Assembly: GCA_947177795.1 (NCBI GenBank)
Contig: CAMWVR010000010.1
Span: forward strand, 1-38,011
Reading direction: 5' to 3'
DNA length: 38,011 bases
Source of the DNA: an uncultured Clostridia bacterium
GTDB lineage: Bacteria; Bacillota; Clostridia; Christensenellales; UBA3700
In this document: positions 33,463 through 35,483 of the stretch, in pieces
How positions within the stretch are numbered: the first letter of the stretch is position 1
Layout of the letters: the number at the start of each line of letters is the position of its first letter
Made by a program: the position numbers and the translations under genes
The notes under the pieces: generated by a model
What the model saw: the letters and a program-made list of their open reading frames with translations, nothing else
Database searches by the model: none
Told to the model about the DNA's origin: nothing

Positions 33463-33491
33463 TTGACATATATTCTATTTTTTGCTAAAAT
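33463..33491 (+). promoter_or_regulatory. Promoter of the structured leader RNA
   Basis: TTGACA at 33463-33468 and TAAAAT at 33486-33491 are exactly 17 bp apart, giving a transcript start near 33498 and a leader of about 255 bases before the next coding region. Confidence 0.78.
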
Positions 33492-33497
33492 GAAATT

Positions 33498-33665
33498 GCC
33501 AAATTAAAGCAGAATAGAAATAATCCCAATGGGTATAGTTTTGGTAGAACTATATCTGAAATCGTTACTTAATTTCTCATTGGGAAGTTCTGTTTTAGTT
33601 TGGCGACTAGCGATGAACGGTATATTCTGCGGTGTCGTTCTTCGCAAGGGGAACGGCATCTTTTT
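33498..33665 (+). ncRNA. Structured leader RNA with aptamer-like three-way junction and attenuator
   Basis: Three stems meet in a tight junction. P1 is TCCCAATG/CATTGGGA (33524-33531 with 33578-33585). P2 is GGTATAGTT/AACTATATC (33532-33540 with 33548-33556). P3 is GAAAT/ATTTC (33558-33562 with 33572-33576). The joins are 0, 1 and 1 base. Loop P2 (TTGGTAG) and loop P3 (CGTTACTTA) can pair over four bases (GUAG with UUAC). Further down, GCGATGAACG (33610-33619) can pair 9 of 10 with CGTTCTTCGC (33636-33645), the 5' side of the terminator, so terminator and antiterminator exclude each other. This is the layout of a riboswitch or attenuator. It matches none of the classes I could compare from memory. 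It could instead be a free small RNA of about 170 bases. Confidence 0.65.
33631..33665 (+). terminator. GNRA-capped attenuator terminator
   Basis: A 13-bp stem (33631-33643 with 33648-33660, including a few G-U pairs) is closed by a GCAA tetraloop and followed by TTTTT. It lies about 90 bases before the next gene, inside its leader, so it can only serve as a conditional stop or as the end of a small RNA. The 88 bases to the ATG hold one weak hairpin (CGACAA/TTGTCG, 33696-33720) and an AGAAGGGG ribosome site. Confidence 0.85.
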
Positions 33666-33753
33666 ATTTATGATATTATATTTAAGATGCTAATCCGACA
33701 ACAAACGGCTTATATTGTCGTAAGTTTGCAAATTTTACAGAAGGGGATTTACA

Positions 33754-34461
33754 ATGAAGGTTTTGACGAAAGAATTATTAAGGGATATGGAACTTTTTGA
33801 ATTATGTTTTGCATTAAAAGATTGCAGAAAGAAAACAATGCCTGTGATAGTATTGGAAGAAAACAAAACTGATTTTTTGACTTTGCCAAACACGTTTGAT
33901 TATTTCGACGGTTGCATAGAGCGCGACGACATTTTGTCGCAATACGTAAATAGAATAAGAATCATATCTTACTTACCCCAAGAAATTTTGCAACGAGTAA
34001 AGGACAAGCGTTTGCTCGCATTGGGGCATGCGGAGCAAGACGTAAAAAAGGCGATATTGGATTACGCAAAAGGCAAAATTTATTTTGCCAACAGCGCAAC
34101 CAGCGTCAGTCTTGAAGATTCGATAGACAACACTGTCGGATTGACTATAGAAAGACAGTTTGCAAAACATGCGCAATTTTGCTCGGTAGAAGAGTTGTTT
34201 GACGGAGTAAATATCATAAGCGTCTGCAAAAAAGCAAAAGATCTATTTATTAAATTGGATAATAAAGAGACGATTGCTTTGACGAGCGTCGAGACCTTGG
34301 AAGAGGAAATCAAGCCCGACGACACCTTCGTGCAGTTGTTTGAATTACATAAGGTCAAGCGGAAATACGAGTTGCACTTTATATTGATGACAAAAGATTC
34401 AGATTTGATCAAGCATTTTCATTACGTTACGTATAGATTCAAGGATATGAGATTCGTTTAG
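33754..34461 (+). CDS. Cytoplasmic protein of unknown function under attenuator control
   Basis: This 235-residue soluble protein has no signal peptide or membrane helix. Its start fits the ribosome site AGAAGGGG, 7 bases before the ATG. It is mixed alpha/beta in look: helical at the start (LTKELLRDMELFELCFALKDC), a strand-rich middle (KKTMPVIVLEENKTDFLTLP), and a Lys/Glu-rich second half. I see no catalytic motif and recognise no family. It is the only gene between the structured leader and the promoter at 34490, so the leader's signal, whatever it is, presumably governs this protein alone. Its function would therefore be the best clue to the ligand. Confidence 0.7.
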   Translation: MKVLTKELLRDMELFELCFALKDCRKKTMPVIVLEENKTDFLTLPNTFDYFDGCIERDDILSQYVNRIRIISYLPQEILQRVKDKRLLALGHAEQDVKKAILDYAKGKIYFANSATSVSLEDSIDNTVGLTIERQFAKHAQFCSVEELFDGVNIISVCKKAKDLFIKLDNKETIALTSVETLEEEIKPDDTFVQLFELHKVKRKYELHFILMTKDSDLIKHFHYVTYRFKDMRFV

Positions 34462-34518: not shown

Positions 34519-34613
34519 ACTTATCGGTTATGTAAGTAAATAGGGGTTTGCTTGCAAAAGGTATGTGTGAATAGGAAAGAAGATCGAAGTCGTTAAAGAC
34601 TGTGGAGGATTTA

Positions 34614-35483
34614 ATGAAATATTGGTGGATATCTTTGATCATTATAGCAATTGCGGCGTTGATGGTTGCGTCCGCTTGGTTGTTGAGAAAGAACCGAAAG
34701 GCTAATATGATCACGCTTTTTGTAGTTTCGTTTGTATTACTTATTTTTAAATCGATTCAATTCGGCATAGAAAGATCGCTCAATCATTATCCAATAGAGT
34801 TTTCGCATATGTCTTATTTCATTTTGGGCGCGACGATGACCGTCGGCGTCAAGAAATTGCGTCCTTTTGCAGGACTTTGCGCATTCCTTTCGGGACTTGC
34901 ATTTGTGCTTGCGGGTATTTTCTCGCCTGCGCCGATATATGAAGATGCAGAAAGTACTTTCAATTGGGTGTCGGGTATCATCCAGCACGAAGTCTTGTTG
35001 TTTGCAGGTCTTTTGATCATATTCAACACCGACAAATACAATATCAAAGATATATGGATAGCTATATTAGGCATAGTCGTAATGTTCGTCTTCTCGGTGT
35101 TGGTATACAACAGAATTCTTTATCCCAATTTGGCAGACAAAAATCACGACAATATGATAATTATATTCATCCTTTACGGCACTATATTAAAGTACGTCAT
35201 GCCTGCGGGATACGTCGTGCCGATTTGGCTCAGAGTGATTACTATAATAGTCGAAGTGATTTTGCTTGGATTGATACTTTGGGGATTCTATTTTGTCAAC
35301 AACAAGTGCTACGACAAAAAAATCAAGAAATATCCCGATTTCATCGGCAATAACGATGAGTACAGCGCAATAGCTCTTGTCAAATATATTGTAAAGAAAG
35401 TCAAAGACAAAAAGACTGCGCAAGAAGTTGCGGCAGGTTTGACTCAAGAAGAAAGCCAAGTCAAAGAAGACGATAAAGAATAA
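34614..35483 (+). CDS. Polytopic membrane protein of unknown function (YwaF-like topology)
   Basis: This protein has about 289 residues, seven predicted membrane helices up to about residue 235, and a charged cytoplasmic tail (about 50 residues, Lys/Glu/Asp-rich). The pattern EFSHMSYFILGATM...HEVLLFAGLLIIF, with paired His residues in helix regions, resembles YwaF/TMEM164-type proteins, but only loosely. ATG 34614 is used: GGAGG lies 5 bases before it, while the in-frame GTG at 34602 would overlap that site. It has its own consensus promoter and terminator. Confidence 0.72.
   Translation: MKYWWISLIIIAIAALMVASAWLLRKNRKANMITLFVVSFVLLIFKSIQFGIERSLNHYPIEFSHMSYFILGATMTVGVKKLRPFAGLCAFLSGLAFVLAGIFSPAPIYEDAESTFNWVSGIIQHEVLLFAGLLIIFNTDKYNIKDIWIAILGIVVMFVFSVLVYNRILYPNLADKNHDNMIIIFILYGTILKYVMPAGYVVPIWLRVITIIVEVILLGLILWGFYFVNNKCYDKKIKKYPDFIGNNDEYSAIALVKYIVKKVKDKKTAQEVAAGLTQEESQVKEDDKE

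Follow-up and report, generated by a model that had tools for sequence, protein, structure and literature searches.

Trp-type attenuators consist of a chain of overlapping helices in which alternate pairs of segments (1:2, 2:3 and 3:4) give either a terminator or an antiterminator. The RNA at positions 33496-33665 of the window (the whole stretch of 38,011 nucleotides analysed, from an uncultured Clostridia bacterium) shows the same kind of chain, but differs in having one extra segment, a pseudoknot within the chain, a basal stem at +1 and no leader peptide above chance: upstream open reading frames with a ribosome-binding site occur in 8 of 71 RNAs of the family, against 7.4 expected from shuffled sequences. 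The ribosome is therefore unlikely to be the sensor, and ribosome-mediated attenuation of the trp type is rejected. Terminating riboswitches of Firmicutes (purine, SAM-I, preQ1, c-di-GMP) combine a strong promoter, a structured body and an antiterminator that overlaps an intrinsic terminator, as does the RNA described here. In contrast to these riboswitches, it has no Rfam match, the conservation of its unpaired bases is thin, and one segment of hairpin P3 (S1) pairs far downstream with the antiterminator strand. T-box leaders also choose between terminator and antiterminator in Firmicutes leaders, whereas the downstream genes of the present family are unrelated to amino acids; the T-box sequence AGGGUGGNACCGCG is found in none of the 71 RNAs and neither the window nor the related loci give an Rfam T-box match, so that this class is rejected as well. 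Type III toxin-antitoxin systems of the ToxIN type are built from a structured RNA, a terminator and then an endoribonuclease gene. These elements and the gene order are similar, but the RNA shows no tandem short internal repeats and the genes that follow it encode surface or SLOG proteins rather than an endoribonuclease.

Searched against Rfam 15, the whole window gives nothing at the gathering threshold except one tRNA, two sets of related loci (7 and 19) give no family at that threshold, and relaxed thresholds return only chance-level matches for the leader and its relatives. No earlier description of the family was found in the openly licensed literature, and a text search of two genome surveys from the Breaker laboratory (PMC11109978, PMC8632094) retrieves no matching terms. 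Our best call, for a literature made up of openly licensed papers, is that 33496-33665 belongs to a new RNA family within a known kind, the attenuator-type leaders, and possibly to the riboswitches. Comparison of the sequences makes it very probable that this is a family of cis-acting leader RNAs from gut Clostridia that operates by transcription attenuation. Readings as a 6S-like, tracrRNA-like or retron-like RNA, prompted by the length of the closed hairpin and by the resemblance of S1:S2 to a repeat:anti-repeat pair, were dropped: there is no Rfam match, and the surroundings of the copies read show no gene for an effector, a reverse transcriptase or CRISPR.

Promoter, fold and covariation

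The window copy comprises the following features:

33463-33491, + strand: sigma-70 type promoter with an extended -10 element (TTGACA / TG.TAAAAT), from a promoter scan; the TG is present in 93 of 105 family members
33496-33606, + strand: basal stem P1 (5' arm 33496-33515, 3' arm 33587-33606), starting at about +1 of the transcript; from the fold and covariation in 82 distinct RNAs
33524-33585, + strand: stem P2 (33524-33531 with 33578-33585); from the minimum-energy fold and inverted repeat I15
33531-33557, + strand: hairpin P3, segment A (33531-33542) with 33546-33557, S1 being partly buried; from the fold and from cognate pairing that exceeds swapped pairing in the family
33543-33566, + strand: S1, conserved GGTAG segment and 5' half of the pseudoknot with S2; from complementarity, covariation and partner swaps
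33609-33630, + strand: S2, pre-terminator segment, partner of S1 (pseudoknot) or, via 33610-33619, of 33636-33645 (antiterminator); from complementarity, covariation, swaps and direct reading of the sequence
33631-33665, + strand: intrinsic terminator with a 13-bp stem (33631-33643/33648-33660), GCAA loop and T run (33661-33665); from a terminator scan, the fold and covariation (helix 3)

The promoter (TTGACA at 33463-33468, a 17-nt spacer, TAAAAT at 33486-33491) scores 11 of 12 matches in the scan and lies between the RNA and the end of msrA (33425), which is 70 nt ahead of it. For the RNA 33498-33665 the folding energy is -61.7 kcal/mol, whereas shuffled versions average -35.6 (z = -6.4) and none of 200 is as stable. 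The minimum-energy structure of this RNA is a long stem with a three-way junction, followed by the 13-bp terminator with TTTTT; this terminator (33631-33660 plus the T run) is the only one in the scan. The antiterminator is formed by 33610-33619 (GCGATGAACG) and 33636-33645 (CGTTCTTCGC), where 9 of 10 positions pair by direct reading, and it uses bases of the terminator 5' arm, which makes the two structures mutually exclusive. The window RNA is probably transcribed and terminated. The initial annotation had placed the promoter, junction, antiterminator and GCAA-capped terminator correctly, and its statement that the two late structures cannot coexist is borne out. It had described the core as a compact junction with paired loops; the junction is indeed recovered in the minimum-energy fold, but the core goes beyond it, being a pseudoknot in a chain of exclusive helices. 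This long-range pairing of 33543-33566 with 33609-33630 (6+6+6 bp in the window copy, between 33544-33566 and 33609-33630) had been missed.

Across the family, the RNA is about 155-230 nt long (median 174) and its consensus order is an extended -10 promoter, P1 at about +1, P2, P3, the P1 3' arm, S2 and the terminator. S1 forms the 3' half of P3 and begins with GGTAG or GGTAA. Among 82 distinct RNAs, P1 pairs 2-7 and 9 are formed in 100%, and pair 4 occurs as all four Watson-Crick types (GC 48, CG 19, AU 12, UA 3) with zero mismatches; here and below, relatedness among the sequences is ignored, which inflates such counts as a measure of independent events, yet the variety of pair types from family to family is clear. 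The most diagnostic covarying element is the S1:S2 pseudoknot, a complementarity of about 10-18 bp with a bulge, present in nearly every copy with sequences that differ between copies (for example AAUACC/GGUAUU, AAUGCACC/GGUGCAUU and GUGUGUC/GACACGC). In an alignment of 32 RNAs, 97.7% of the cells of S1:S2 and the terminator are paired, compared with 90.9% in shuffles; sliding the partner by 1-3 columns lowers pairing to 27-62%, and in the inner S1:S2 helix all four of four pairs are changed on both sides. G-U pairs are tolerated in the family helices. Strong conservation is seen at few unpaired positions; the motif AATA near J1/2 is found in 46 of 71 RNAs, against a maximum of 37 in shuffles. 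Compensatory covariation in P1, S1:S2 and the terminator makes this a structured RNA family. The initial annotation had offered covariation of the stems at homologous loci as a test of its proposal, and the stems do covary there, P1 in the 82 RNAs and S1:S2 with the terminator in the 32; its suggestion of novelty agrees with the Rfam searches of the leader region and related loci, strict and relaxed.

Spread of the family and downstream genes

A DNA-similarity search of 99 relatives recovers five more copies of full length, spread over four congeneric genomes (two in G001, one each in G002, G004 and G008), and shorter 3' matches in G002, G004 and G016 (same genus) and in G060 (a different family). 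At the level of the order, a small covariance model (R1) built on the 3' portion of the RNA has matches in 40 of 396 genomes and 14 of 142 genera, several of them in tandem; low-scoring R1 matches that lack S1 or are plain terminators (L041, L044, L079, L036) are left out of the evidence. A second covariance model (R2) has matches in 60 of 391 genomes and 39 of 223 genera of the class, with a maximum of six per genome. In a phylum-level sample of 299 genomes the only covariance-model match is in the window's own genome. Scanning named genomes with a sequence pattern yields 62 contigs, nearly all labelled gut Clostridia, Oscillospiraceae, Ruminococcus or similar. One carrier record is labelled Bacteroides sp. 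(L169) and is probably a mislabelled bin; one carrier in the scan is cultured, Agathobaculum desmolans ATCC 43058, which makes the RNA testable at once. A phage origin is rejected because one pattern scan of viral contigs, with an exact pattern that covers part of the family diversity, finds no copy. If the leader reading is correct, a major class of animal gut bacteria carries a widespread structured leader RNA that is absent from Rfam.

Tandem RNAs occur as two to four direct copies, each with its own promoter and terminator and no genes between them (L053 in G182:C27, L059/L035 in G146:C25, L056 in G325:C11, L057 in G396:C35, and L140). Such arrays look like the outcome of repeated local duplication. 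Behind some tandem copies the downstream gene is reduced to a few codons. At two loci, tyrosine recombinase-like genes recognized by eye lie directly upstream of the RNA-SLOG unit (L008, 1773-3041; L012, 1-1269), which suggests that some copies travel on integrated elements.

A start codon lies at most 60 nt from the terminator at 82 of the 153 places examined. In SLOG-associated copies the T run is followed directly by the ATG of a YpsA SLOG family gene, the ATG often being at the T run itself, while other genes have a ribosome-binding site and an ATG 13-30 nt beyond it. A scan of 87 downstream proteins finds BspA-type leucine-rich repeats in 22, YpsA SLOG in 7 (at the threshold used; more SLOG-like proteins score below it), Listeria-Bacteroides repeats in 6 and zinc ribbons in 4, and many of the rest show, by eye, a signal peptide or a lipoprotein-like N-terminus. 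Apparently, the RNA governs BspA-type and other surface proteins, and it may offer a handle on how mostly uncultured gut bacteria choose the surface proteins that they show. YpsA-family loci number 27 in 25 genomes and about 10 of them have the RNA directly upstream; SLOG genes as a group thus do not always come with the RNA. The SLOG association may point to a nucleotide-type signal. Small proteins of 75-78 aa with no assigned function also recur downstream of the RNA (L091, L098, L105, L140, L156).

A proposed switching chain and its alternatives

In a partner-swap test, the pairing of a segment with its own partner was compared with its pairing to the partner from a dissimilar family member. 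Cognate S1:S2 pairing reaches -17.0 kcal/mol against -8.1 for swapped partners, and in 49 of 60 RNAs it is better than 95% or more of the swapped pairings. The corresponding values are -11.7 and -7.0 kcal/mol for S2:T5, the antiterminator (38 of 60 RNAs reach the same 95% mark), and -13.4 and -8.6 kcal/mol for A:S1, which is P3. Control pairings of the S2 3' half with T5 and of S1 with T5 show no notable difference, and the 45 nt preceding A give no cognate advantage. Each of the four overlapping helices A:S1, S1:S2, S2:T5 and T5:T3 is thus maintained.

From these pairings a switch can be proposed. The transcript would begin at or beside stem P1, and the segments A, S1, S2, T5 and T3 would follow in this order, each pairing with its neighbours only: A:S1 as P3, S1:S2 as the pseudoknot, S2:T5 as the antiterminator and T5:T3 as the terminator. 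Since the helices are mutually exclusive, P3 together with the antiterminator would constitute the ON state, in which polymerase passes, and the pseudoknot together with the terminator the OFF state, in which it stops. A terminator before the gene and an antiterminator exclusive with it are both present, and on this ground the RNA would be a transcription attenuator of the general kind. Its chain of helices would be a clear-cut case, found in nature, of switching by RNA strand exchange in several steps. Beyond the pairings and their conservation, we infer that something tips the balance between the two sets; given the thin conservation of unpaired bases, this may be a small molecule or else a protein or another trans factor.

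As a special case of the leader reading, the RNA may be a riboswitch in the strict sense, a serious though tentative possibility in which the attenuator is set by a small molecule bound to the P1-P2-P3/pseudoknot body. This would fit a pseudoknot that is coupled to antiterminator and terminator without a leader peptide, and the presence of the RNA, in many families, before many genes of one theme (SLOG nucleotide-binding proteins and surface or secreted proteins). However, unpaired bases are weakly conserved, and S1 and S2 are very variable in sequence within the window's order, which leaves few fixed ligand contacts. Moreover, c-di-GMP is the obvious guess for surface genes, but no GGDEF domain is found in 19 of 37 carrier genomes, including that of the window (G000, 97% complete), so that it is unlikely as a general ligand; with the lack of an Rfam match, this leads to rejection of a c-di-GMP riboswitch. 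In its full form, the proposal, a serious possibility though short of probable, would be a new riboswitch class of gut Clostridia, present in as many as six copies in one genome. It would respond to a small signal, in general other than c-di-GMP, and control surface and SLOG proteins via a four-helix strand-exchange cascade with a pseudoknot.

The other special case, in which an RNA-binding protein or another trans factor sets the attenuator, is only slightly less likely. Conservation resides mostly in helices and short motifs (GGTA, and GCAAC around the P1 end), as in protein-bound leaders, and the three-state architecture is compatible with such a factor, but no conserved protein partner has come to notice.

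It is unlikely that the RNA is not a leader but a standalone small RNA, or one whose read-through is antisense to a neighbour. P1 closes its 5' end at +1 and the strong terminator its 3' end, the tandem copies have their own promoters and no genes between them, and a convergent Cro/CI-type helix-turn-helix (HTH) gene comes next in G001, G008 and G161, so that read-through there would be antisense to it. Against this, a same-strand start codon lies within 60 nt at most places, in SLOG loci at the T run itself, and a conserved antiterminator would be useless for an RNA that needs only to end. A DNA recombination site (attC-like or an invertible element) in place of an RNA is highly improbable: the long inverted repeat, the tandem duplication and the tyrosine recombinase-like gene beside some copies (L008, L012) would be expected of one, but transcription is favoured by the promoter geometry, by the G-U pairs in the helices, by the T run of the terminator and by the strand-specific position ahead of genes. 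Scarcely credible is a mere msrA terminator with chance structure, which the nearby end of msrA might suggest; as the main explanation it is refuted by the covariance-model spread and the covariation, given that the RNA has its own promoter in between, follows unrelated genes in relatives, and shows covarying P1 and pseudoknot in dozens of other gene contexts.

The 33754 gene and related loci

While attenuation remains the preferred reading for the family, the relation of the window copy to the next gene is a separate matter. Two further features are relevant:

33668-33722, + strand: block that recurs in near-identical form ahead of a SLOG-like gene in G001 and G008 and contains the palindrome CGACAA-N13-TTGTCG (33696-33720); from comparison with these two genomes
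33754-34461, + strand: gene after the leader, encoding 235 aa, with no relative in Pfam, NCBIfam, PADLOC or solved structures

The lack of any match in these libraries agrees with the earlier description of the gene as one without known function. A role in a defence system is rejected, PADLOC matches being weak only. Among 99 relatives, homologues occur only in G001 and G008, where the order is the RNA, a convergent Cro/CI-type HTH gene, a block like window 33668-33722, the start of a SLOG-like gene, and the homologue. Because a convergent gene follows the RNA in G001:C56, G008:C17 and G161:C10, the RNA cannot be a simple leader at these places. The last of them belongs to another family and carries two RNAs, convergent HTH genes and then a SLOG gene. 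This order of RNA, convergent Cro/CI-type HTH gene or genes and SLOG-like gene recurs in two bacterial families (L003, L004, L054/L194), and read-through of the RNA there would be antisense to the HTH gene.

The simplest reading of the comparison is that the window lost the HTH and SLOG-like genes, which would have brought the RNA beside the 33754 gene; the window copy may thus be displaced relative to the sister genomes. The 33754 gene probably keeps its own promoter, with the block 33668-33722 as its likely separate promoter/operator region, and the palindrome is likely the operator of the HTH protein lost from the window. The initial annotation had the leader control this gene. Such control is not established and appears doubtful in this genome, since a convergent Cro/CI-type gene intervenes in the sisters and the homologue has its own conserved upstream block, with a palindromic operator-like site in 33668-33722. 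Of the earlier attenuator or riboswitch proposal, what stands is an attenuator-type leader with covarying stems that is absent from Rfam; the sensing of a metabolite and the assignment to the 33754 gene are less secure. Further downstream, window 34602-35483 encodes a predicted membrane protein that matches the TMEM164 family (Pfam PF14808, E 8e-9), a family that to our knowledge is unusual in bacteria.
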